Assembly (NCBI GenBank): GCA_035288405.1
Contig: DATEAK010000372.1
Location: 1 to 12,719, forward strand
Source of the DNA: JACPSX01 sp035288405 [NCBI: bacterium]
GTDB lineage: Bacteria; JACPSX01
Length of the DNA stretch: 12,719 nt
Direction: 5' to 3'
A program made the position numbers and the translations under genes. The notes below the pieces were generated by a model. The model saw only the letters and a list, made by a program, of their open reading frames with translations. It ran no database searches and had not been told where the DNA came from. Of this stretch, positions 180 through 12,595 are shown in pieces; positions within the stretch are counted from its first letter, which is position 1, and the number at the start of each line of letters is the position of its first letter.

Positions 180-1166
180 ATGAAACGTAGATGGAGAGGG
201 ATTGCGGTTTTATTGTTCCTCATCGTTCTTGTTGCCGCCGGCTCGCCGGCCCAAGTAACTGCGGAGGAATTCCTTCGAGTTGGGGTTCCGTTATACCCAA
301 TATCCGCTTTTCCTTCGCTCGCTGCCAGCGCGAAAGGCTTTTTCCAGAAGAACGGCCTGAAAGTGGAAAATATCAGGATCAATAGCGAGCCCACGACGTA
401 CCAGGCGCTGTTATCGGGAGACATTGATGTAGCTGCCGGCTCAGGCACAGGTTTTGTGCTCTCTCATTTACAAGGTATTGGAGTTGTTTGCCTTGGGAGT
501 TTTGAAAACATCGTTCCCTATACTTTGGCGACGCGCGAAAAGATAACCGATATTGCCCAGTTGCGCGGCAAGAAAATAGGGGTGAACCGGTTAGGGGGTA
601 AATCGTCGTTGATTCTACGTGTCATGTTGGAGGATGCGGGGCTGGATCCGTTCAAGGATGTTACCTTGCTTCAACTGGGCAGTTCCCAGGAGAGGATGGC
701 CGCCCTTATGAAGGCCGGAATCGACGCCGCTCCTGTGGATTACTCAATTGAGCCTACCATGAAGAGGATGGGATTTTTCTTGCTCCAGGGAAAGAAGACA
801 TTCTTTCTGAATGGGCCGATCGTTTTCAAGAGGGCTTATTTGGAGTCCCGTCGATCGACCGTGAAGAATTTTATGAAGGGGTTGTTAGAGGGGACCAGCT
901 ATATCATGAGTAACAGGGAAGGAACCCTCAATGTCTTATCGCGAGAAATGAAGATCGGAGATAAGGAAACTCTCGAGTACATCTATGATCATATGCGCTC
1001 TACGGCGGATGCAAGCCTTTACCCACCGGAAGAGTCAGTGACAAACCTTTTGAAAATGATGGCCTATGTCGACAAGAGAGCGGCATCGGTCCGCCCGGAA
1101 AAGATCATGGACTATTCTCTTCTGGAGGAGCTGGGACAGAAGAGGCCTCCGCTGTCGCAGAAATAG
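180..1166 (+). CDS. ABC transporter substrate-binding protein, NMT1/SsuA-like (copy 1)
   Basis: A 328-aa periplasmic solute-binding protein. Residues 1-28 form a signal peptide: basic MKRRWR start, hydrophobic core, probable cleavage after QVTA. The mature part has the two-lobe NMT1/SsuA/TauA layout: an N-terminal strand RVGVPLYP (33-40), a helix where the ligand lobe begins (AKGFFQKNGLKVE, 51-63), LLSGDIDVAAGSGTG (77-91), the hinge region LRGKKIGV (128-135), and the second-lobe MAALMKAGIDAA stretch after residue 170. The family binds small organic solutes such as sulfonates, nitrate, pyrimidine precursors or aromatic acids; the ligand cannot be read here. The start is fixed by a strong AAGGAGGT at 168-175, 4 bp before the ATG. 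No permease or ATPase gene accompanies it. It heads the cluster and is followed directly by a hairpin. It clearly differs from the second binding protein at 10466. Confidence 0.88.
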   Translation: MKRRWRGIAVLLFLIVLVAAGSPAQVTAEEFLRVGVPLYPISAFPSLAASAKGFFQKNGLKVENIRINSEPTTYQALLSGDIDVAAGSGTGFVLSHLQGIGVVCLGSFENIVPYTLATREKITDIAQLRGKKIGVNRLGGKSSLILRVMLEDAGLDPFKDVTLLQLGSSQERMAALMKAGIDAAPVDYSIEPTMKRMGFFLLQGKKTFFLNGPIVFKRAYLESRRSTVKNFMKGLLEGTSYIMSNREGTLNVLSREMKIGDKETLEYIYDHMRSTADASLYPPEESVTNLLKMMAYVDKRAASVRPEKIMDYSLLEELGQKRPPLSQK

Positions 1167-1293: not shown

Positions 1294-3342
1294 ATGCGGG
1301 TTGGGGTGGATATCGGCGGCACGTTTACCGACTTCGTGGCGATGGGAGAGGATGGACGGATACTCCATACCAAATCATCGACCACGCCCAAAGAACTGAC
1401 CGAGGGGATCCTGCAATGCTTTGACAAGGCGGGTTTACACAAGCTGGCTCAGGTGAAGCAGCTTCTCCATGGATCCACGGTGGCCATCAATACGATTATA
1501 CAAGGAGTGGGGGCCAAGACCGCCCTGATTACAACCAAAGGGATGCGAGACATCTATGAGATCGGCCGGGAAAACCGACCGGATAGCTGGAATCTCTTCT
1601 TCCACCGTCCACGGCCGCTGGTCACTCGGGAGTGGCGCCTGGAGGTTTCGGAACGCAGTACTCCGAAGGGTGATATTTTGGTGCCGCTGGACGAATCGGA
1701 GCTGGAAGGAATTGCAGGGCGGCTGGAGAAGCATGGCGTTGAAGCGGTGGCCGTCTGTTTTCTTCATTCCTACATGAACCCGGCCCACGAGAGGAGAGCG
1801 GGCGAGATCCTGCACAAAGAGTTACCGGATGTTTTTATTTCCCTATCCAACGAGCTGGTGAGGGAGATGGGGGAGTATGAGCGAACCTCGACTACAGTCC
1901 TGAACGCGTATGTGGGACCGGTGGTATCGAGTTACCTGAACCACTTGGTAGGGCATATGCAGAGGCTGGAGTTTCAAGGTGTCTTGCTGATCATGCAGTC
2001 CAACGGCGGCTGCATGTCGGTCGAGGTAGCCAAACAACAGCCCATTCATACCACGGAATCCGGACCGGTTTCGGGAATGATCGGCGCCGCTCACCTTTCA
2101 CAGATTCTCGACTTGCCTTCGGCGGTTGCTTTCGATATGGGCGGTACCACGGCGAAAACGGTCTTCGTTCAGAAAGGGACTGTTCCCCTTGCGCCGGTCT
2201 GCTACATCGGGGGGTATGAGACCGGACAACCGATGAAGGTGCCGGTGGCGGACATTGTTGAGATCGGCGCCGGAGGCGGCAGCATCGCCTCCGTGGACGA
2301 TCTGGGAGTCCTCAGTGTGGGGCCCAGAAGCGCCGGGGCGGATCCCGGACCCGTCTGTTACGGTCAGGGCGGCACGGAACCGACCGTCACCGATGCAAAT
2401 CTTCTCTTGGGCCGGTTAAATCCCCAGAACTTTCTTGGAGGCGAAATGCCTCTTGCCGTCGAGCCGGCCAGGGATGCGCTGAAGCGTCGAGTTGCAGACC
2501 CCAAGGGAATGGATGTATACCGGGCGGCCGATGCCATCCTCCAGATCGTTACGAACAACATGTCACTGGCCGTTCGCAGAATTTCCGTCGAAAGAGGTAT
2601 CGATCCCCGGGATTGTGTGATTATCGCCTTTGGAGGTGCCGGGCCGCTTCATGCCGTAGGGGTGGCTAAGGAACTTTTAATCCCGAAGGTGATCGTCCCG
2701 CCCATACCCGGCCACTTCTCGGCCCTGGGCATGTTGGTGGCGGACCTTCGTCATGATTACGTCCAGACGTACCTACATGAACTGAAATCCGCCGATAGGA
2801 ATGCAATTTTATCCTACTTTCGAGAATTTGAGCGTCAAGCCCGAGCTACTCTGGTTTCGGAGGGTGCCTCCATCGACACGATATCAAGCTCTCTGAGACT
2901 CGACTTGCGATACCAGGGGCAGGATCACGTCCTCTCCGTGCCGGTGACATTCAGTGAATTGGAGAATGGCGAGTACCAAGTCTTCATCGAGCGCTACGAC
3001 CGCACTCATTTGGACTATTACGGTCACGCAGCTTCCGGGGAGATCGTGGAGGTTGTGAACCTGAGGTTGGTAGCCAGCGGCCGGGCCAACAAAGAACGGG
3101 TCGAGGTCTTTCGGCCCATCACTGAACAAAAGGGAAGACCGGAGGTTGGCGGACGTCGGACTTACTGGGGTCCCAAATGGGGTTGGTTGGACACGGCCAT
3201 TTATCAACGGGGGCAATTGGGATCCGGCTTCCGTTGCGAAGGCCCGGCGATTGTAGAGGAGTGGGCTTCGACCACGCTCATCTTCCCTGGAGATAAGCTG
3301 ATGGTGGATCCGTTGGGGAATCTTGTCGTGGAGGTTGGTTAA
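1294..3342 (+). CDS. hyuA: Hydantoinase/oxoprolinase family subunit A, copy 1
   Basis: A 682-aa ATP-binding subunit of the hydantoinase/5-oxoprolinase/acetone carboxylase family, cytoplasmic. The actin-like ATPase motifs are intact: MRVGVDIGGTFTDF (1-14), HGSTVAIN (59-66), ESGPVSG (255-261), FDMGGTTAK (280-288), EIGAGGGSIA (323-332), SAGADPGPVCYG (346-357) and FGGAGPLHA (446-454), then a C-terminal domain with RYQGQDHVLSVP (539-550) and EGPAIVEEWASTT (649-661). The family uses ATP to activate a lactam, imide or ketone for hydrolysis or carboxylation, together with a B subunit. The ATG at 1294 is preferred: it has AGGAG at 1281-1285, puts the ATPase motif at the N-terminus as is usual, and gives exactly the length of copy 2. 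A longer in-frame start at 1066 would overlap the preceding gene and add an arginine-rich, unfamily-like stretch. The B gene follows after 2 bp. The substrate is unknown; a carboxylase role is possible. Confidence 0.93.
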   Translation: MRVGVDIGGTFTDFVAMGEDGRILHTKSSTTPKELTEGILQCFDKAGLHKLAQVKQLLHGSTVAINTIIQGVGAKTALITTKGMRDIYEIGRENRPDSWNLFFHRPRPLVTREWRLEVSERSTPKGDILVPLDESELEGIAGRLEKHGVEAVAVCFLHSYMNPAHERRAGEILHKELPDVFISLSNELVREMGEYERTSTTVLNAYVGPVVSSYLNHLVGHMQRLEFQGVLLIMQSNGGCMSVEVAKQQPIHTTESGPVSGMIGAAHLSQILDLPSAVAFDMGGTTAKTVFVQKGTVPLAPVCYIGGYETGQPMKVPVADIVEIGAGGGSIASVDDLGVLSVGPRSAGADPGPVCYGQGGTEPTVTDANLLLGRLNPQNFLGGEMPLAVEPARDALKRRVADPKGMDVYRAADAILQIVTNNMSLAVRRISVERGIDPRDCVIIAFGGAGPLHAVGVAKELLIPKVIVPPIPGHFSALGMLVADLRHDYVQTYLHELKSADRNAILSYFREFERQARATLVSEGASIDTISSSLRLDLRYQGQDHVLSVPVTFSELENGEYQVFIERYDRTHLDYYGHAASGEIVEVVNLRLVASGRANKERVEVFRPITEQKGRPEVGGRRTYWGPKWGWLDTAIYQRGQLGSGFRCEGPAIVEEWASTTLIFPGDKLMVDPLGNLVVEVG

Positions 3343-3344
3343 CC

Positions 3345-5111
3345 ATGGGAAAGTCAACCATCGATCCGGTAACGCTGGAGGTTCTGCGGGCGGCAATCCC
3401 TGCGGTTTGTGATGAAATGGCCGTGGTTCTTCGCCGGGCGGCCCATAACATGTTCATTTATGAGATTCAGGATTTTTCCGTGGCGATCGTCGACCCGGAG
3501 GGGAATTTGATCGGTCAGAACCGCGGTGCGATTCCTTTTTTCCTGGCCGACCTAGGACCACCGATTCAGAGCGGCATCGCAGAGATCGGCAAGGACAATT
3601 TCTTTCCCGGCGATGTCATCATCATGAATCATCCGGCCGTCTGCGGCCAACACCTGAACAATGTCATCATCTATCAGCCCGTCTTCTTCGAGGGCCGGCT
3701 GGTGAGCTTCACGGTGGCAAGGGGTCACTGGATGGACATCGGAGGCTCGAAAATGGGTCTGGGCTTCAGCCGGACTCTGGATGTCTACCAGGAAGGCTTG
3801 CAGTTCAGAAACCTCAAGATTTACGAAGCGGGGAAACCCAATAAGACACTGTTCCGGATGATCGAGGACAACCTCCGGCGCCCGGATCTGGCCCTCGGCG
3901 ATTTGCGAGCGCAAATCGCCGCCTGCCGCCTGGGAGAGAGGCGCTTTTTAGCGATCCTGGAAAAGTACGGGTTGGAGACGGTGCTTCAAGCCGTGAGCCT
4001 CCTTGCCGACCAGGCGGAAGAACGGGCCCGAAAGGGCGTAGCCCGAATTCCTGACGGAGTCTATGAGGCGGAATCGTTCCTGGACAGCGATGGGGTTGAT
4101 CTGGATAAGACCATTCCCGTAAAGGTCCGGGTCATCGTCGAGGGCACTTCGATGACCATCGACTTCTCTGAGATGGGTGAACAGGTGAAGGGACCGGTAA
4201 ATTCCGGTACAGGCGGTTTGCTGACGGCCCGTTCCGCATTTAAGATTCTCACCTCCCCCAACGATTTCGCCAATGAAGGCCATTTCCGGCCTCTCAAGAT
4301 GATCTTACCCCCCGGCAAGTTCATCAGCGCCAAACCCCCGGCCGCGTTGGGATCCTGGAGCAGTGGTCTGTCCACGGTTTTGGACACGATCTTGAAAGCG
4401 TTGGCACCTGCCCTGCCCCATCTTATCCCTGCCGGACACAAAGCGGACCAGGGCGAATTTGGTTTCTACGGAATCGATGCCTCCACGAACAAGTATTGGC
4501 TTTGTGGAAACATCCGGGGTGGAGGCCATGGCGGGCGTCCCCATGAGGATGGAGAGAGCGCTTCCGTGAATCTTTTGCAGGGCGACATCACCACGGCTCC
4601 GGTGGAGGCGATAGAACAAAAGTACCCACTTTTCGTGGAGAATTATTCTCTCATCCCGGATTCGGGTGGTCCTGGAAAATTCAGGGGCGGGTTGGGCACC
4701 GAATGGCTGATCCGGCCTTTTGACGTTGATCATGTCTTTGTCAATATCGGTGGTGAGCGTTTCGGGTGCCCGCCGTGGGGCCTTTGGGGCGGCAAAGCGG
4801 GCATGCCGAACCACTACTTACTGGATCTGGGTGATGGAACGAAACCGGAAATTGTTGCCAAGCGTCCCGGTCAACTGGTGCCTAAGAAAGGTTGGGTCGC
4901 ACTGCGCGGTGGCGGCGGCGGCGGTTGGGGTGATCCTCTGGAACGGGATATAGCCCGGGTCCTCACGGACGTCATCCGAGGCTATGTGTCGCCGGAGAAG
5001 GCCCGCTCCGAGTACGGTGTGGTGATCGATCTATCCAAGAAAGAGGTGGACGAGGCGGCCACTCGAGCACTGAGAGAAAGCATGCGTCAAGCCTGCAAGA
5101 AATGGGATTGA
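3345..5111 (+). CDS. hyuB: Hydantoinase/oxoprolinase family subunit B, copy 1
   Basis: A 588-aa B subunit, the partner of the A subunit 2 bp upstream. Family landmarks are the N-terminal IDPVTLEVLRAAIP (6-19), DFSVAIVDPEGNLIGQ (43-58), PGDVIIMNHP (88-97), GHWMDIGG (127-134), the N-terminal part of a PxGxxxxAKPPAA segment (322-334), DSGGPGKFRGGLG (439-451) and the glycine-rich C-terminal GGGGGGWGDPLER (522-534), followed by the usual DVIRGYVSPEKARSEYGV tail. In characterised relatives the A and B subunits form one complex in which B carries the metal-containing substrate site. Here the familiar NDP and HLPD signatures read NHP (95-97) and HLNN (103-106), while His103, His128 and Asp131 remain. 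GGAGGT at 3330-3335 lies inside the end of the A gene, 9 bp before the ATG, so translation is probably coupled. A 131-bp gap precedes the next gene. Confidence 0.93.
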   Translation: MGKSTIDPVTLEVLRAAIPAVCDEMAVVLRRAAHNMFIYEIQDFSVAIVDPEGNLIGQNRGAIPFFLADLGPPIQSGIAEIGKDNFFPGDVIIMNHPAVCGQHLNNVIIYQPVFFEGRLVSFTVARGHWMDIGGSKMGLGFSRTLDVYQEGLQFRNLKIYEAGKPNKTLFRMIEDNLRRPDLALGDLRAQIAACRLGERRFLAILEKYGLETVLQAVSLLADQAEERARKGVARIPDGVYEAESFLDSDGVDLDKTIPVKVRVIVEGTSMTIDFSEMGEQVKGPVNSGTGGLLTARSAFKILTSPNDFANEGHFRPLKMILPPGKFISAKPPAALGSWSSGLSTVLDTILKALAPALPHLIPAGHKADQGEFGFYGIDASTNKYWLCGNIRGGGHGGRPHEDGESASVNLLQGDITTAPVEAIEQKYPLFVENYSLIPDSGGPGKFRGGLGTEWLIRPFDVDHVFVNIGGERFGCPPWGLWGGKAGMPNHYLLDLGDGTKPEIVAKRPGQLVPKKGWVALRGGGGGGWGDPLERDIARVLTDVIRGYVSPEKARSEYGVVIDLSKKEVDEAATRALRESMRQACKKWD

Positions 5112-5243
5112 CTCCAAGCGAAGTTTAGGGTTACAAAAGTTTACCGATTTGACGTACCCGTCGAGACTCTCGGAAAAGTTCCATTCAGGTCTTCAACGAA
5201 ACGCGGCACCTTTCTCGAAGACCGATTCAAGGAGGTAAAGGAA

Positions 5244-6452
5244 ATGGCCAAGGCACCCAGCCCCAGAATGCCGGAGGTCGCCAGGATTACGAAAGTCGAG
5301 CAGTTGCTCCCCCGGGCCCGCGAGATGGTCAGCCGCACGGCGGCCAACATGTATGAAGGGATCGAGATCAAGAAGGGACAAAAAGTACTGTTCATCAACG
5401 ATACGACGGCGGATCAACTCGTGGTTCAGGCTCTGACAACGGCGATGCTGGAGAGAGGAGCTCACGTCAACACGATCACGCTGGAAGGATTTCGCGGCCT
5501 GAAAAATGCTGGCGAAATGGTGGACAGCATGTTTTCCAACTCCTGGTATCCAGGCTGGGTCTGGAACGCCGCGGCCGAGGCGGACGTTATTTTACTGACC
5601 GCCTTCATCAAGTTTGCTCACGCTCCGATTCCGGCCTTGCCCAATAAGCCCCTCATCGACAACCTGGAGACGGTGAGCGATCTCATGCTCTCCGAATATG
5701 AGGCTTTTCCAGTGGAGATCAGGGATACCATCGATGAGGTAGCCTGGGCGAAACTGTTTAATTGCACGAAGGTGAAATGGACCGATCTGGAAGGCACCGA
5801 CATCACCATGTCACTCACACCGAAAGACTGGGAAGCTTCCACGGCAAAAACCATGAAACAGTGGGGTGTTCCGTACCTCCACGGCCATCCGCTGCTGCCG
5901 GCACCGTGTCTCGAAATGAACGGTGTGTGGGTCACGAGCAGTGTCACCTTCGGCGGACCCATTCCCAGGACGACCATGCACATTGAAAAGGGCAAGGTTG
6001 TGAAGGTGGAAGGCGGCGGAGATTTCGGCGATCGCCTTCGGGAGAGCTTTTCGAGATACGAAGATCTTCATCAGTCCAGGTGCCCGGGGCCGGGTGTGAA
6101 CTGGATTACGACGATCGGACTGTGCACGCATCCGAAAGCCCGGCGCTCGCCGTTCTTTGAGGAGCTGGAGGGTTCCGCGCGCGTTTACGCCTGGACCTTC
6201 GGGCACCGGCGCTCCGGCGTGATGCACACTTCAGTGGGGGAAGGTAAGGTCTCGCCCAGCTACAAAGTCATCCGCCATATGGACACTTTTTTTAACACGC
6301 TGATTACGGATAAAGGCGTCGTGGTTGAAAACGGACGCCTGACCGCCCTGGACGATCCCAAAGTGCGCCAGGTCGCGGCGAAGTACGGCGATCCCGACAA
6401 GCTTTTGGAAGAGATCTGGATTCCCGCTGTCTCCGGAGTCAACGCCCCGTAA
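5244..6452 (+). CDS. M29 aminopeptidase-fold / NicX-like metalloenzyme
   Basis: A 402-aa cytoplasmic protein of the superfamily that contains M29 aminopeptidases (AmpS/PepS) and 2,5-dihydroxypyridine 5,6-dioxygenase (NicX). The N-terminal domain has the family's LxIKKGQKVLFIND pattern (near 40-53), then alternating helices and strands. The second domain has TDLEGTDITMSL (180-191), a strand-turn MHIEKGKVVKVEGGGDFGDRLRES (245-268), THPKARRSP (295-303) and RHMDTFFNTL (344-353). His345-x-Asp347 matches the C-terminal metal-binding His-x-Asp of the superfamily, and His296 is the likely third ligand. M29 peptidases usually have Glu in a GELGxGTNP-like segment; here the matching segment is WITTIGLCTHPKA with no Glu, which fits a NicX-like mononuclear iron site better than a two-metal peptidase. 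That alignment is from memory. GGAGGT at 5231-5236, 7 bp upstream, fixes the start. Its place between the two hyuAB pairs suggests it acts in the same pathway. The specific substrate is unknown. Confidence 0.75.
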   Translation: MAKAPSPRMPEVARITKVEQLLPRAREMVSRTAANMYEGIEIKKGQKVLFINDTTADQLVVQALTTAMLERGAHVNTITLEGFRGLKNAGEMVDSMFSNSWYPGWVWNAAAEADVILLTAFIKFAHAPIPALPNKPLIDNLETVSDLMLSEYEAFPVEIRDTIDEVAWAKLFNCTKVKWTDLEGTDITMSLTPKDWEASTAKTMKQWGVPYLHGHPLLPAPCLEMNGVWVTSSVTFGGPIPRTTMHIEKGKVVKVEGGGDFGDRLRESFSRYEDLHQSRCPGPGVNWITTIGLCTHPKARRSPFFEELEGSARVYAWTFGHRRSGVMHTSVGEGKVSPSYKVIRHMDTFFNTLITDKGVVVENGRLTALDDPKVRQVAAKYGDPDKLLEEIWIPAVSGVNAP

Positions 6453-6553
6453 GTTCCGCCACGTTGATCTGAAGACTTTTTGGGGGGGCAAATTGAGGGG
6501 GAAGGTGCGCCATAAATTTCCACAAGGAAGTGACTGACAGGGAAGGATGTACG

Positions 6554-8602
6554 ATGCGGGTGGGGGTGGATATCGGCGGTACATTTACGGACTTCGTAGG
6601 GATGGGCAAGGACGGACAGGTTTTTCTCTCCAAGGAATCTACCACACCAAAAGAGCTGACAGAGGCGATTCTTCGGTGCTTTGCCAGGGTGGGCTTACAT
6701 AAGCTCGCCGACGTGAACCAAATTCTGCATGGATCCACGGTCGCCATTAACACGATTATTCAGCAGGTGGGAGCGAAGACCGCCCTCATCACGACAAAGG
6801 GGATGCGTGACGTCTATGAGATCGGCCGCAGTAATCGTCCCGATAGCTGGAATCTCTTCTTCCATCGTCCACGGCCGCTGGTCACCCGGGAATGGCGCCT
6901 GGAGGTATCGGAGAGGATTACCGCCAAAGGGGATATTCTCGTCCCCCTGGACGAGTCCGGGTTGGCGGAGACCGTGGATCTGCTGAAACGGGAAGCGATC
7001 GAGGCGGTTGCCGTCTGCTTTCTTCATTCCTATGTGAATCCTGTCCACGAGCAGAGGGTGGGGGAGATTTTGCGCAAAGAACTCCCGGGAGTGTTTGTTA
7101 CGGTGTCCCATGAGTTGATCCGAGAGATGCGGGAATACGAGCGAACATCCACCGCGGTGCTCAACGCGTACGTGGGCCCGGTCGTGGCGAGTTACCTCGA
7201 CAAGTTGGAAAAGCGTGTGAAGGAACAAGAGTTCAAAGGTGTTCTATTGATCATGCAGTCCAATGGCGGTTGCATGTCGACGGAGCTGGCCAGGAGGCAG
7301 CCCATTCTCACCACAGAATCCGGGCCGGTATCCGGAATCATCGGCGCCGCTCACCTTACCGAGGTCATGGATTTAGATGCGGCGATTGCATTTGACATGG
7401 GCGGTACGACGGCAAAAACCGCTTTTATTCGAAACGGCACCGTGCCGCTGGCGCCCGGTTGCTACATCGGAGGTTATGAAACCGGACAGCCGATGAGAGT
7501 CCCGGTGGTCGACATTATCGAGATCGGTGCCGGAGGTGGAAGCATTGCCTGGTTGGACGAGGTGGGCGTCCTCAATGTGGGGCCGAAGAGCGCCGGGGCC
7601 GATCCCGGGCCGGTCTGTTACGGCAAAGGCGGGCATGAGCCCACTGTCACCGACGCCAATCTCCTTTTGGGCCGCTTAAACCCCGCCAATTTTCTTGGCG
7701 GCGAGATGCCCCTTGCGGAAGATCCGGCCCGCGCTGCGCTGAAGAGCCGAATTGCGGATCCCAAACGGTTGAAGCTCCATGAGGCGGCGGATGCCATCCT
7801 GCAGATTGTCACCAGCAACATGTCGCTGGCCGTCCGTCGAATTTCCGTCGAAAAAGGGATAGACCCACGGGATTGCGTCATCATCGCCTTTGGCGGGGCC
7901 GGGCCTCTCCATGCGGTCGGGGTTGCCAAGGAACTGTCGATCCCGAGGGTGATCATCCCGCCCATGCCCGGCCATTTCTCCGCCCTCGGGATGTTGGTGG
8001 CGGATCTCCGCCACGATTATGTCCAGACGTTCCTCCATGATCTGAAGTCGGCGGATATGAAGGTCATGCACTCCTGCCTGCAACAATTCGAACGTCATGC
8101 ACGGGAGACTTTAAGGTCCGAGGGGGCTCACCCGGACAGCCTATCGTCTGCGCTGAGCCTGGAATTGCGATATCAGGGCCAGGACCACGTCTTGTCCGTG
8201 CCGGTGACGTTCGAGGAGTTGAAGGTTGGAGATTACCGGGCCTTTGTGGACCGTTACGATCGCCTTCACCAGGAATATTACGGCCATGCCGCTCCGGGAG
8301 AGACCGTGGAAGTGGTGAACTTGCGGTTGATCGCCGCCGGTCGTTCACGAGGAACCCGGGCGGAGGTATTCCTTCCCATTTCCAAACGACGGAAGAGTCC
8401 GGAGGTGGGATGGCGTCAGGTCTATTGGGGTTCGGTTTGGGGTTGGCGGAACACTGCGATTTATCGAAGGGAACAGTTGAGCCCTGGATTTGAGATGGAA
8501 GGCCCGGCGATCGTGGAGGAGAAGGCTTCCACCACGGCGGTCTACCCCGGAGGCGGTCTTCGGGTGGATCCAATCGGAACCCTTACCGTAGAAGTGGCTT
8601 AG
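6554..8602 (+). CDS. hyuA: Hydantoinase/oxoprolinase family subunit A, copy 2
   Basis: A 682-aa paralogue of the A subunit at 1294, aligning without gaps. All ATPase motifs are kept: MRVGVDIGGTFTDF (1-14), HGSTVAIN (59-66), FDMGGTTAK (280-288), EIGAGGGSIA (323-332), SAGADPGPVCYG (346-357) and FGGAGPLHA (446-454), so neither copy looks catalytically dead. Changes concentrate in residues 16-57, 122-180 and 181-228 and in the C-terminal third, whereas 59-120 is almost invariant; this suits paralogues with shifted substrate or partner choice. The ATG at 6554 is preferred over a GTG at 6530, because GGAAGG at 6541-6546 is well placed 7 bp upstream and the resulting length equals copy 1. The B gene begins 2 bp after the TAG stop. 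ATP-dependent ring opening of a cyclic amide, or carboxylation, are the two family options. Confidence 0.93.
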   Translation: MRVGVDIGGTFTDFVGMGKDGQVFLSKESTTPKELTEAILRCFARVGLHKLADVNQILHGSTVAINTIIQQVGAKTALITTKGMRDVYEIGRSNRPDSWNLFFHRPRPLVTREWRLEVSERITAKGDILVPLDESGLAETVDLLKREAIEAVAVCFLHSYVNPVHEQRVGEILRKELPGVFVTVSHELIREMREYERTSTAVLNAYVGPVVASYLDKLEKRVKEQEFKGVLLIMQSNGGCMSTELARRQPILTTESGPVSGIIGAAHLTEVMDLDAAIAFDMGGTTAKTAFIRNGTVPLAPGCYIGGYETGQPMRVPVVDIIEIGAGGGSIAWLDEVGVLNVGPKSAGADPGPVCYGKGGHEPTVTDANLLLGRLNPANFLGGEMPLAEDPARAALKSRIADPKRLKLHEAADAILQIVTSNMSLAVRRISVEKGIDPRDCVIIAFGGAGPLHAVGVAKELSIPRVIIPPMPGHFSALGMLVADLRHDYVQTFLHDLKSADMKVMHSCLQQFERHARETLRSEGAHPDSLSSALSLELRYQGQDHVLSVPVTFEELKVGDYRAFVDRYDRLHQEYYGHAAPGETVEVVNLRLIAAGRSRGTRAEVFLPISKRRKSPEVGWRQVYWGSVWGWRNTAIYRREQLSPGFEMEGPAIVEEKASTTAVYPGGGLRVDPIGTLTVEVA

Positions 8603-8604
8603 CT

Positions 8605-10371
8605 GTGTCGGAACCAAACATCGGTACGGCGACTCTGGGGATTCTGCGAGCGGCAATTCCCGCCATCTGCGACGAAATGGCGGTCGTTCTCCAGCGCACG
8701 GCGTACAACATGTTCATTTATGAGGTTCAGGACTATTCCGTCGCCATTGTGGATCCGGAAGGCAACTTGATTGCTCAGAACCGGGGAGCGATCCCCCTGT
8801 TCCTGGCGGATCTGGGCCCGCCGATTCGCAGCGGCCTGGAGGAAATCGGCAGGGACAATCTCTTTCCCGGCGATGTGATCCTCATGAATCATCCGGCCGT
8901 CTGTGGTCAACACCTGAACAACGTCATCGTTTATCAGCCCATGTTCTTCGAGGGACGGCTGGTCGGCTTCGCCGTGGCCAGGGGACACTGGATGGACATT
9001 GGAGGCTCCAAGGTCGGCATCGGCTTCAGCCGTACACTGGACGTCTACCAAGAGGGTTTACAGTTTCGCAACCTGAAGATTTACGAGGCCGGCAAGCCCA
9101 ACAAGACGCTGTTTCAGATCGTGCAGGACAATCTCCGGCGCCCGGATTTGGCCCTTGGCGATCTGCGTGCTCAGATTGCTGCCTGCCGATTGGGGGAGAA
9201 GCGCTTCCTCGAACTTTTGCAAAAGCATGGGTTCGATACGGTGCTGCGGGCCGTGCAAATCATCGCCGATCAGTCGGAGGAACGGGCCAGAAAGGCTGTG
9301 GCTCAGATCCCGGACGGAGTCTATGAAGCGGAATCCTTCTTAGATAACGATGGGGTTGATCTGGATAAGACCATTCCCGTAAAGGTCCGGGTGATCGTCG
9401 AGGGCACCGAGATGACCTTTGACTACACGGAGATGAGTGAACAGGTCCAGGGACCGATTAACTCGGGGTCGGGCGGCTTAGTGACCGCCCGTTCCGCGTT
9501 TAAAATTCTCACTTCACCTGCGGATTCTGCCAACGAGGGTCATTTCCGGCCGGTCAAGCTGATCCTTCCCCCGGGCAAGCTCATCAGCGCCAAGCCGCCG
9601 GCAGCCATGGGATCCTGGAGTATGGGCCTCTCCACTGTTTTGGACACCATTCTGAAGGCTTTAGCTCCGGCGATTCCACATCTTATCCCCGCCGGTCACA
9701 AGGCGGATCAAGGCAGTTTCGGCTTTTACGGCATCGATCCGGCCACGGGCAAGTACTGGTTTTGCGGAAACATCCGTGGCGGCGGCTGGGGAGGACGGCC
9801 CCACGAGGATGGGGAAAGCGCCTCGGTAAACATCATGCAGGGCGATATCACCACGGCTCCAGTGGAGGTACTCGAACAAAAATTCCCTCTCTTCGTTGAG
9901 AGTCATATTCTCATTCAGGACTCCGGCGGAGCGGGAAAATTCCGGGGAGGTTTGGGCACCGAGTGGCGTATCCGACCGTTCGGCGTTGATCACGTGTTCA
10001 TCAATATCGGCAGCGAACGTTTCAAATGTCCTCCCTGGGGTCTTTGGGGCGGCAAACCGGCCATGCCGAATCATTACCTGGTGGACCTGGGTGATGGCAG
10101 GGAACCGGAGGTGATTACCAAGCGTCCCGGTGTCCGCGTGCCGAAAGAAGGTTGGGTGGGGTTGCGCAGCGGGGGCGGCGGCGGCTGGGGCGATCCGTTG
10201 GAACGGGAGACGGAACGGGTTCTCACGGACGTCCTTCGCGGTTACGTGTCGTCGGAGAGTGCCTATTCGGATTATGGTGTGGTCCTTGATCGATCCCGGA
10301 AAAAGGTGGACGAGGCGGCCACACGAGCTTTGAGAGAGAAGATGCGCCGGGCACGGGGGGGAGTCCCATGA
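8605..10371 (+). CDS. hyuB: Hydantoinase/oxoprolinase family subunit B, copy 2
   Basis: A 588-aa paralogue of the B subunit at 3345, ungapped in alignment. It shares the altered signatures NHP (95-97) and HLNN (103-106), keeps His103, His128 and Asp131, and retains GGGGGWGDPLER near 523-534 and DSGGAGKFRGGLG (439-451). Its first residues have drifted: Asp7, Pro8 and Glu12 of the usual IDPVTLE opening are Gly, Thr and Gly here. The start is GTG at 8605, and the position matching copy 1's GGAGGT reads AGAAGT (8590-8595), so initiation probably depends on coupling to the A gene that ends 2 bp earlier. The GTG is favoured because it reproduces the length of copy 1 and no better in-frame start is visible. 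It presumably pairs with the A subunit just upstream, although mixed complexes with the first pair are possible. Confidence 0.92.
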   Translation: MSEPNIGTATLGILRAAIPAICDEMAVVLQRTAYNMFIYEVQDYSVAIVDPEGNLIAQNRGAIPLFLADLGPPIRSGLEEIGRDNLFPGDVILMNHPAVCGQHLNNVIVYQPMFFEGRLVGFAVARGHWMDIGGSKVGIGFSRTLDVYQEGLQFRNLKIYEAGKPNKTLFQIVQDNLRRPDLALGDLRAQIAACRLGEKRFLELLQKHGFDTVLRAVQIIADQSEERARKAVAQIPDGVYEAESFLDNDGVDLDKTIPVKVRVIVEGTEMTFDYTEMSEQVQGPINSGSGGLVTARSAFKILTSPADSANEGHFRPVKLILPPGKLISAKPPAAMGSWSMGLSTVLDTILKALAPAIPHLIPAGHKADQGSFGFYGIDPATGKYWFCGNIRGGGWGGRPHEDGESASVNIMQGDITTAPVEVLEQKFPLFVESHILIQDSGGAGKFRGGLGTEWRIRPFGVDHVFINIGSERFKCPPWGLWGGKPAMPNHYLVDLGDGREPEVITKRPGVRVPKEGWVGLRSGGGGGWGDPLERETERVLTDVLRGYVSSESAYSDYGVVLDRSRKKVDEAATRALREKMRRARGGVP

Positions 10372-10465
10372 TTCTTGCGGCCAAGGTTTCCCTGGAATCT
10401 TATGGTGCACAGGCGCTGCTTCGACCGTATCCATACTTTAGGCTTTCAGTTTAAGGAGAGCGATC

Positions 10466-11470
10466 ATGGAGAAAAGGGGACAATGGATGAAGATTCCAGT
10501 TGGGACGGCGATTACTTTGATGATTCTCTTCAGCTTCGCACGAGCCGGCTCGGGCGCTGATATAACGACCCTGCGGTCGAGCTATGGTGGAACTGCGGGC
10601 TATCAACTCCCCATCTGGGTGGTGAAGGAAGCCGGGCTCTACAAGAAGTACGGCGTCCCCGATATGGAAGTCATCATGATCGAAGGGGGCGCGGTCAACA
10701 TTCAGGCGTTGCTGGGAGGAAGCCTCGATATGACCCAGACTTCGGCCTCCTCGCCGATTCAAGCCGCCTTGAAGGGAGCCCCCGTAGTGATCGTCGCCAC
10801 CACGGATAATAAAATCCCGGTACAGATGATCAGCCGCTCCGACATCAAGACGCCTCAACAGCTCAAAGGAAAGACAATCGGCATCGTGCGCTTCGGCGGC
10901 TCCAACGAGACGGCGGTGAAGATGGCCCTCAAAGAATGGAACATCGAACTGCGCGAAGTGAAAATATTGCCTGCGGGCGGCGCGGCGGCGCGAATGGCGG
11001 CGATGTCGAGCGGCAGGATCGATGCGACCGTGCAGTCTTATCCGGAAGTGTATCAGGCCCGAAAACTCGGCATGAATATCCTGGCGGACATCGGAGACTT
11101 CGGCTCGTACACGAACACTTCCCTGATCGTCACGCGCCCTTTTCTGCAGCAGAACCGGGCTTTGACGAAAAACATGGTCAAAGCCGTGATCGAGGCGATT
11201 CACTACATCAAAACCAACAAGCCGGAGACCCTGCGAGTCTTGAAAAAGTATATGCAGATGAATGACATGGAAGCCATCGGAGTGACCTACGACTTCTTCT
11301 CCAAGCGCATGCCCCGTGTTCCTCGCACGGACCCCGAAGGGGTAAAAAATATTCTGGATGAAATTAAATCCCCCTTGAAAGATTATTCGGGGTTCTTGGA
11401 TATGAGCCTGGTGGATGAGATTGAACGGGAAGGATTCATCCAGAAAGTTTACGGGCCGGAAAAACGTTAG
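10466..11470 (+). CDS. ABC transporter substrate-binding protein, NMT1-like (copy 2)
   Basis: A 334-aa exported solute-binding protein. Residues 1 to about 31 are a signal peptide (MEKRGQWMKI, then a hydrophobic run, with cleavage probably after ARA or GSGA). The mature part shows the NMT1/SsuA-like pattern: GYQLPIWVVKEAGLYKKYG (45-63), IEGGAVNIQALLGGSLDMT (72-90), KGAPVVIVAT (103-112), LKGKTIGIVRFGG (133-145) and ARMAAMSSGRIDATVQ (175-190). The GxxxIQALLGGSLD and GRIDA segments form the two ligand-facing lobe edges in this family. AAGGAG at 10453-10458, 7 bp upstream, supports the ATG; Met8 (10487) is a weaker alternative. It is only distantly like the binding protein at 180, so it probably recognises a different ligand or evolved separately. 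No permease or ATPase lies next to it, so it must use a transporter encoded elsewhere or act as a sensor. Confidence 0.88.
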   Translation: MEKRGQWMKIPVGTAITLMILFSFARAGSGADITTLRSSYGGTAGYQLPIWVVKEAGLYKKYGVPDMEVIMIEGGAVNIQALLGGSLDMTQTSASSPIQAALKGAPVVIVATTDNKIPVQMISRSDIKTPQQLKGKTIGIVRFGGSNETAVKMALKEWNIELREVKILPAGGAAARMAAMSSGRIDATVQSYPEVYQARKLGMNILADIGDFGSYTNTSLIVTRPFLQQNRALTKNMVKAVIEAIHYIKTNKPETLRVLKKYMQMNDMEAIGVTYDFFSKRMPRVPRTDPEGVKNILDEIKSPLKDYSGFLDMSLVDEIEREGFIQKVYGPEKR

Positions 11471-11578
11471 AAAGACGGCTTCATTGACAGCTAAAAAGGA
11501 GCCGCACAATCCGGCAGAGTATCGAGAGCGAGGAAGGATTCTCGTCAAGATTTGATTTGTTCGGAAAGGAGAGCAGCG

Positions 11579-12595
11579 ATGGCAAGCGATGGAAGCGCGA
11601 ACCAATTCGTCCGAAACTATGTGGCCGTCGTCACGCCGTTTCAAGAGAACTTTCAGATCGATGAACCCGCCTTGCGCAAGCTCCTGGAGTACTTCATGCA
11701 ACCCAAGTTCCGGGAAGGGGGCGGCATTATCATCAACCCCGAGGCGGGAGAGATCTTCTATATGAGCCGCCAAGAGAAGCGCAGAAACATCGAGATCGCC
11801 AGGGAAGTGTGCGGCGGAAAGGTTCCTGTCTTTGCAGGGGTTACGGATTTGAGGACCGAGGACGCCGTGCGGGTGGCCGTCGATGCGAAGGAAGCAGGGG
11901 CGGACGGCTTATTCCTGCTTCCTCCCATCGGGATGCAAGATATCACCGGCTCTTGGGATCCGGAAAAATATCCTGAGGTTTGGATCGACATGGCGAAGGC
12001 GGAAGTGGAGGCCGTCGATCTCCCGGCCATCGCCCATCCGGTGGCCGGTCGAACCGCGATGTTCGGAATCGGGCTCCCCCTGGCGCCGACCCTGCTCATG
12101 TGCAAGGAGATTCCGAATATCGTGGGATGGAAGATGACCTATAGTTACGAAGGCTGCCGAATTATCGCTAAAGGACTGAAGTCGCTCGACCGGCATGTCG
12201 CAGTCCTGATCGCCACCGGCCGGTACTTTCACGAACATCTGGCCACGGGTATCCTGGAGGGCACACTGTCCGGCTCTTACAACTACGCCATGGAGCCGAT
12301 GATCGACCACATCGAAGCCTGGCGGAGACAAGACCTGGAAGGGGCCTGCCGGATCTGGAATTCCGGAATGGCCGAACTGCACTCTTGCGTCTATTCGGAT
12401 TATTCCCGCCTCCACGTCCGCTACAAGGTGGCTACATGGCTGAGGGGGCTGATTCCCCTTCCTTTCATGCGGCCGCCTCAGCCGCAGCCCAGAAAGGAAG
12501 AAGTGCAAAGTCTGCGCGGGCTTCTTTTGAAAACCGGGCTGAGTGTGATTGAAGACGACGCGGTCAACTTCGTGGTGAACCGGTTAAAACGGTAG
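11579..12595 (+). CDS. Dihydrodipicolinate synthase (DapA/NAL) superfamily lyase, divergent
   Basis: A 338-aa TIM-barrel protein of the DapA/N-acetylneuraminate lyase superfamily, cytoplasmic. The barrel starts with NYVAVVTPFQ (near 13-22). NPEAGEIFYMSRQEK (53-67) replaces the usual GTTGE-x-x-x-L segment, followed by VPVFAGVTDLRTEDAVRVAVDAKEAGADGLFLLPP (82-116) and PNIVGWKMTY (179-188), where Lys185 matches the Schiff-base lysine. The family's PYYN segment, whose tyrosine serves in proton transfer, reads PPIG (115-118), and the usual YNxPGRTG reads HPVAGRT (153-159). It is somewhat longer than the usual 290-300 residues because of extra C-terminal sequence. It therefore probably performs a retro-aldol, dehydration or decarboxylation-type reaction on a keto acid, not lysine biosynthesis. 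AAGGAG at 11566-11571, 7 bp upstream, fixes the ATG; a TTG at 11552 is less likely. As the last gene it may process the opened-ring product. Confidence 0.82.
   Translation: MASDGSANQFVRNYVAVVTPFQENFQIDEPALRKLLEYFMQPKFREGGGIIINPEAGEIFYMSRQEKRRNIEIAREVCGGKVPVFAGVTDLRTEDAVRVAVDAKEAGADGLFLLPPIGMQDITGSWDPEKYPEVWIDMAKAEVEAVDLPAIAHPVAGRTAMFGIGLPLAPTLLMCKEIPNIVGWKMTYSYEGCRIIAKGLKSLDRHVAVLIATGRYFHEHLATGILEGTLSGSYNYAMEPMIDHIEAWRRQDLEGACRIWNSGMAELHSCVYSDYSRLHVRYKVATWLRGLIPLPFMRPPQPQPRKEEVQSLRGLLLKTGLSVIEDDAVNFVVNRLKR

Follow-up and report, generated by a model that had tools for sequence, protein, structure and literature searches.

Two intact pairs of hyuA- and hyuB-type genes lie in tandem on a 12,719-nucleotide stretch of DNA from the bacterium JACPSX01 sp035288405 (contig DATEAK010000372.1, assembly GCA_035288405.1), and this whole stretch is referred to here as the window. 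On the sampling available, sequence comparison identifies the pairs as tandem duplicates of one HyuAB unit that have diverged and are specific to this lineage. The best reading of this arrangement is two separate alpha2beta2 HyuAB enzymes with overlapping substrates and different preference, and we would give it an even chance of being correct. The more interesting point, and the one worth pursuing, is the branch of HyuB that holds both pairs, in which a metal-ligand position is occupied by Asn or His. The window has eight genes, all on the same strand, in the order SBP1, hyuA1, hyuB1, an M29-like gene, hyuA2, hyuB2, SBP2 and a DapA-like gene, where SBP denotes a substrate-binding protein. Residues were mapped on the caprolactamase CapAB as described in its structure paper (PMC8453981; 22 positions in CapA and 23 in CapB), and the genes of the two pairs are the following.

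1294-3342, plus strand: hyuA1, ATP-binding (ASKHA) HyuA-type subunit, 682 aa, with Lys288 at the CapA Asp302 position (Pfam Hydantoinase_A, Hydant_A_N, Hydant_A_C; CapA mapping)
3345-5111, plus strand: hyuB1, HyuB-type metal-site subunit, 588 aa, with ligands D43, H103, N106 and H128, and His395 (Pfam Hydantoinase_B, E=2.5e-142; CapB mapping)
6554-8602, plus strand: hyuA2, paralogue of hyuA1, 682 aa, with the same Lys and a possible alternative GTG start at 6530 (Pfam; CapA mapping)
8605-10371, plus strand: hyuB2, paralogue of hyuB1, 588 aa, GTG start, with Asn at the third ligand position and Trp395 (Pfam; CapB mapping)

The geometry reported in the original prediction was borne out by recomputation. 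A1-B1 (1294-5111) and A2-B2 (6554-10371) each span 3,818 bp with a gap of 2 bp between A and B, and the offset of 5,260 between them was also returned by a repeat finder. Both A genes measure 2,049 bp and both B genes 1,767 bp, an equality of unit length that means merely that no indels have been fixed. Gap-free comparison gives 506/682 identical residues for A1 and A2 (74.2%; 73.6% in nucleotides) and 469/588 for B1 and B2 (79.8%; 77.2% in nucleotides), and the earlier estimate that a fifth to a quarter of the residues differ thus holds, at 26% in A and 20% in B. The similarity is confined to the units, with only 16-37% in seven 100-bp segments outside or across their edges. All four proteins score far above the Pfam gathering thresholds of Hydantoinase_A, Hydant_A_N and Hydantoinase_B, which places them in the HyuAB superfamily.

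Both copies are diverged and under purifying selection, as the ratio of nonsynonymous to synonymous divergence (dN/dS) by NG86 is about 0.14 in A (0.170/1.22) and about 0.10 in B (0.122/1.16), the YN00 values being 0.150/2.23 and 0.117/1.22. No relative-rate comparison of A1 with A2 or of B1 with B2, made against the 10 best of 19 outgroups for A and the 10 best of 51 for B, gave p < 0.05 (0/20, lowest 0.067). A pseudogene or decaying copy is ruled out by the open frames, dN/dS and these symmetric rates. Within A the most diverged region is the C-terminal barrel (39/66 identical, p 0.005) and the least diverged the C-part of the ASKHA fold (209/257 identical, p 0.001), these regions being chosen post hoc and the values uncorrected. 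Recent gene conversion of whole units is ruled out by the spread of the divergence over the units, but B carries traces on a smaller scale. Its longest identical run is 45 nt, which was equalled in 3/1000 codon shuffles, against 424/1000 for the longest run in A, and synonymous identity is about 0.8 in two of 15 B codon blocks (81-120 and 241-280) compared with 0.4-0.6 elsewhere. This pattern may reflect either gene conversion or constraint acting locally. The block of codons 81-120 (3585-3704 of the window in hyuB1, and likewise in hyuB2) holds the metal motif, has a synonymous identity of 0.82 and may be a gene-conversion tract.

Relatives of HyuB were sought in overlapping sets of 4, 395 (one phylum), 148 (a class), 400 (a second phylum), 1 and 29 genomes, with the first three candidates per genome scored in the 395- and 400-genome sets and the first nine in the 148-genome set. 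Among the candidates scored, identity peaked at 53-54% in matches of nearly full length and at 56% in a partial one. Matches to B2 at E <= 1e-60 were found in 130 of 72,556 plasmid records, all below 60% identity, and viral contigs held no relatives of B2 or of the M29-like protein. In quick trees (LG+G4), whose only support values are those of the Shimodaira-Hasegawa-like approximate likelihood ratio test, B1 and B2 are sisters with a support of 100, as are A1 and A2. The HyuB tree comprises 85 of 87 aligned rows, two short rows having been dropped, and no HyuB row is a repeat; the HyuA tree comprises 67 of 68 rows, 11 HyuA rows being incomplete repeats of genes that the set also contains in full length. 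The sampling is biased toward relatives of the window. On these trees A and B would most simply have been duplicated together, after the lineage had left all sampled relatives. Since the nearest HyuAB relatives of both copies are only about 50-56% identical, the split between A1 and A2 and between B1 and B2 is seen in no other sampled genome. The original prediction had looked to A and B phylogenies for a split shared by many genomes; the split is private to this genome as sampled, yet neither copy is pseudogenised.

It had further been claimed that both pairs keep every ATPase motif. For the ATPase this is accurate, as the phosphate 1, phosphate 2 and adenosine motifs of the ASKHA fold are intact in A1 and A2 (D11, T15, D18, D295, T299 and GxxPGP in CapA numbering), but a qualification is needed for the metal site of the partner subunit. 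The metal ligands of CapB are D41, H99, D102 and H124, and each of their Ala mutants was without measurable activity (PMC8453981, Table 4). The third of these, D102, corresponds to Asn106 in both B1 and B2, in an ungapped local match to CapB, N-methylhydantoinase and the beta subunit of acetophenone carboxylase (Apc). Among 87 aligned HyuB rows (84 HyuB from 116 loci together with B1, B2 and CapB) this position is Asp in 34, Asn in 40 (B1, B2 and 38 others) and His in 13. Each of these classes falls on one side of a single branch of the HyuB tree (support 97 for Asn, 100 for His and 98 for Asp), with a minimum of two changes. The exchange is thus branch-wide among the sampled members, with Asn in the group of the window pairs and His in its sister group. 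The HyuA partners of Asn-type HyuB do not form one group alone, but together with the partners of the His type they do.

A second exchange concerns the kinase pocket of HyuA. In 44 adjacent pairs, the residue at the position of CapA D302 is Lys in all 19 pairs with an Asn- or His-type HyuB, and Asp in 13, Lys in 11 and Glu in one of the 25 Asp-type pairs. Lys is therefore not exclusive to the Asn/His branch, as 11/25 Asp-type pairs also have it. The four plasmid relatives examined (one Asn, three His) all have Lys in HyuA. According to PMC8453981, CapA D302 corresponds to Lys281 of the alpha' chain of Apc, a chain tentatively assigned to bicarbonate in PMC5214803. One may speculate that the window pairs belong to a distinct HyuAB class, in which the Asn/His third ligand and a kinase-pocket Lys like that of the Apc chain thought to phosphorylate bicarbonate reflect a different chemistry (e.g. 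carboxyphosphate-driven carboxylation, or another metal), and which has repeatedly been kept as two paralogous modules or as two unlike B chains, maybe forming B-B' heterodimers. Taken as a whole this proposal is tentative and more probably wrong than right.

No description of the Asn/His-type HyuB branch was found in the literature, which is not proof of absence. Functions transferred from canonical enzymes may be wrong in this branch, because all of it lacks the Asp whose loss abolishes activity in caprolactamase. Plasmid annotations give HyuAB proteins default names such as hydantoinase B/oxoprolinase, and these proteins can be numerous in one genome, as in G001 with 26 HyuB matches at E <= 1e-20.

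Doubled modules recur elsewhere in the branch. In two loci (L066 and L067) a single HyuA gene is accompanied, within 10-13 kb, by two Asn-type HyuB genes that differ from each other, and in two others (L068, 3393-10158; L069, 4980-10780) one HyuA gene is followed by two different His-type HyuB genes close together, the latter layout being suggestive of a single A chain shared by two B chains. Two adjacent His-type HyuB genes are found in L070. In genome G499 (contig 130, L110), positions 2499-11571 hold a gene that fuses HyuA and HyuB (1,273 aa), a gene for an ATP-binding cassette (ABC) ATPase, and a separate HyuA and HyuB, all confirmed with Pfam; the two modules are 66% (A) and 62% (B) identical to each other. 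The genes of this AB-X-AB array are all on one strand and adjoin a permease gene, and a molybdopterin oxidoreductase gene follows at 76-2412. Altogether, a local HyuB or HyuAB pair is present in at least five of the 29 surveyed genomes with Asn- or His-type HyuB (G499, G509, G513, G517 and G519), a minimum, many other genomes being covered with little flank.

The sequences show that a HyuAB unit, from a superfamily of ATP-dependent lactamases, hydantoinases and ketone carboxylases, underwent duplication as one block in this lineage, that both copies are constrained with a conserved ATP site, and that their third metal ligand is Asn in place of Asp. The quaternary structure, the reaction and the substrates of the window pairs we infer as follows. 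Both copies would have been retained as functional enzymes in the company of binding proteins of an importer and of a gene resembling metallohydrolases, and each pair most likely makes its own CapAB-like alpha2beta2 enzyme. HyuA would transfer phosphate from ATP to a substrate of the amide or ketone type, or to bicarbonate; the intermediate so activated would then pass to the metal site of HyuB and there undergo hydrolysis or carboxylation. The substrates of the two pairs are probably close relatives, for which the pairs differ in preference.

The division of labour which the original prediction drew from the retention of both pairs is plausible, because two intact, constrained and non-identical copies are present and neither evolves significantly faster; its suggestion of a mixed complex of the Apc type fares less well, as discussed below. 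The differences between the copies are few at the active site. All 20 CapA positions that can be compared are the same in A1 and A2 (two of the 22 mapped are gapped in both copies), as are 19 of 21 comparable CapB positions in B1 and B2 (two of 23 gapped in both). The two exceptions are CapB I62, which is Phe in B1 and Leu in B2, and C410, which is Leu in B1 and Met in B2, and both residues are listed in PMC8453981 as lining the substrate pocket. Residue 395, in a conserved Gly-rich loop, is His in B1 and Trp in B2 and in 34 further of the 40 Asn-type rows, the remaining four His395 rows being L016, L104, L114 and L115. With 74-80% identity, the tandem copies lend themselves to a search for the residues that determine specificity.

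Three observations weigh against two enzymes of different preference: the near-identical active-site residues leave room for plain gene dosage, the identical 45-nt run in B hints at gene conversion, which would oppose functional divergence, and the branch members with two unlike B genes beside one A do not fit a fixed module of one A and one B. Of the competing explanations, ranked below separate enzymes, dosage or redundancy comes next, a mixed complex third and successive steps last. If both pairs were the same enzyme with the same specificity, the second copy raising output or answering another signal, then the agreement at nearly all compared active-site residues, the symmetric rates and the possible conversion tract would be expected. 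High synonymous divergence (dS of about 1.2, NG86) and an amino-acid divergence of 20-26% exceed what dosage needs, however, and His395/Trp395 and the two pocket positions differ, so that we regard this explanation as possible but clearly less probable than separate enzymes.

A heterotetramer in which A1B1 and A2B2 are joined via a B1-B2 interface, giving one complex with two different half-sites, is unlikely. The stretch corresponding to the CapB-CapB interface is identical at 40/46 positions in B1 and B2, which would permit cross-pairing, and L066, L067, L068 and L069 show that one HyuA gene may be paired with two different HyuB genes; the interface is, however, not significantly more conserved than the rest of B (Fisher p 0.25), and the fused chain in G499 suits self-contained modules, its layout favouring by analogy one A per B in each module. 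Both A chains also look like the beta-contacting type, unlike the case in Apc, where the alpha' chain has a diverged interface and does not touch beta, one beta is shared and a gamma subunit with four Cys is present (PMC5214803). The CapB-contacting parts of A1 and A2 are alike (17/21 identical in helix N and 8/8 in the omega loop). The fingerprint R/KERiDsxG, reported there to occur in alpha and to be lost in alpha', reads SERSTPKG in A1 and SERITAKG in A2, with E, R and G kept in both and I also in A2. The mixed complex modelled on Apc is out as the best reading: A1 and A2 agree at 20/20 CapA positions, each A has its own B, and no gamma-type subunit family was found among the eight window genes scanned with Pfam and NCBIfam (two open reading frames of at least 60 aa, mostly outside these genes on the other strand, were unscanned).

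Two separate enzymes thus remain the favoured reading, and the other genes of the window, listed here, give them a context.

180-1166, plus strand: SBP1, NMT1/SsuA-type ABC substrate-binding protein, 328 aa (Pfam NMT1, E=4.1e-24)
5244-6452, plus strand: middle gene, 402-aa protein distantly like M29 metalloproteases (itself without a Pfam match; its relative L004 weakly matches Peptidase_M29)
10466-11470, plus strand: SBP2, NMT1/SsuA-type ABC substrate-binding protein, 334 aa, 27% identical to SBP1 (Pfam)
11552-12595, plus strand: DapA-family (dihydrodipicolinate synthase-like) aldolase/lyase, 347 aa (Pfam DHDPS, E=2e-21)

The label M29/NicX-like, given to the middle gene in the original prediction, is weak. 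The protein has no Pfam match even at E = 10, and M29 enters only via two scanned relatives, which match Peptidase_M29 below the cut-off (E = 0.0084 and 0.18). The ligands of NicX are known (PMC7910607), but a PDB profile search with the middle protein gave no NicX match, its single match (E 0.068) being taken as chance, and the predicted structure, from a 5-row alignment, reached a predicted local distance difference test score of 39.4. The gene has four close relatives at 64-75% identity, the best foreign identities being 75% for the M29-like protein (G001) and 73% for the DapA-like protein (G519, among 13 genomes searched); plasmids gave no match to the M29-like protein. At the four close-relative loci, within the DNA covered (the L001 contig is only 5.7 kb), hyuAB was not found to accompany the M29-like gene. 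A distant M29-like gene stands between a UbiD-family decarboxylase gene (Pfam UbiD) and hyuB-hyuA in genome G004 (L078:12-6577). That pair 2 and the M29-like enzyme act on the product of pair 1 in two successive pathway steps is very improbable: the gene order A1B1, hydrolase-like gene, A2B2 and the branch relatives beside M24 peptidase/creatinase-type genes would suit it, but active sites with nearly the same residues are better suited to similar substrates than to one substrate and the product of its ring opening, and the M29-like gene has no hyuAB neighbour at those four loci. The non-canonical metal site and kinase pocket of both copies make ring opening itself hard to judge from sequence.

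Pairs of SBP and M29-like genes occur in L001, L157 and L159. An NMT1-type SBP gene is paired with a DapA-family gene at 10466-12595 of the window and again in L154 (8083-10337) and L156 (2388-4470), in both of the latter without hyuAB beside it. In the window this pair, SBP2 plus the DapA-like gene, has the look of a module of its own. Around Asn/His-type HyuB, 82 neighbour proteins were hand-picked from 20 loci (134 candidate frames, many antisense) and included 13 NMT1 binding proteins, seven M24 peptidases, five MmgE/PrpD proteins and four amidohydrolases; Asn/His loci alone were scanned and no enrichment is claimed. On a Neorhizobium plasmid hyuA-hyuB is followed by M24-type genes (annotated in pieces), a binding protein, an ATPase and two permeases. 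The window may be a catabolic island whose substrate is imported and probably resembles an amide or a ketone. Scans of the window for tRNA and Rfam families gave no match, and neither promoter-like sites (4 against a shuffle mean of 5.5) nor terminator-like sites (15 against 13.8, sd 3.9) were in clear excess.

Among known systems, CapAB of Pseudomonas jessenii (PDB 6YRA), a two-gene alpha/beta enzyme, is the best NCBIfam match, although its equivalog cut-off of 1000 is not reached (528-557 for A, 282-286 for B). The window pairs keep the phosphate motifs for ATP as well as three metal ligands (D41, H99 and H124), whereas D102 is replaced by Asn, D302 by Lys, and the vicinal disulfide Cys410-Cys411 by Leu-Gln in B1 and Met-Gln in B2. 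The best PDB match is N-methylhydantoinase (PDB 7HK5 and relatives; 483 bits for A1 and 316 bits for B1), which has the same order of A then B but is a single chain of 1,288 residues comprising both parts, with Asp at both positions in the alignments. Two-gene ATP-dependent hydantoinases/amidohydrolases (Hyd) likewise consist of alpha then beta only, an order which the window has twice. Acetone carboxylase differs in that no downstream acxC (gamma) is found among the eight window genes and in that B, at 588 aa, is shorter than the solved chain with its 776. Apc (PDB 5L9W) resembles the window in its HyuA-like and HyuB-like subunits and in Lys281 of alpha', which matches the Lys of A1 and A2. 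In Apc, however, a single beta serves two alpha chains that differ from each other and a gamma subunit is present, where the window has two alike A and two B, and its genes run apcABCD(E) (alpha', gamma, alpha, beta) against A-B-X-A-B, so that, judged on gene content, the analogy fails on the features that define Apc. The G499 cluster resembles the window in layout, since two modules with the Asn/Lys signature stand on either side of a single gene and transporter genes lie nearby, although its middle gene encodes an ABC ATPase, one module is fused, and its modules are not sister to the window copies in the trees.

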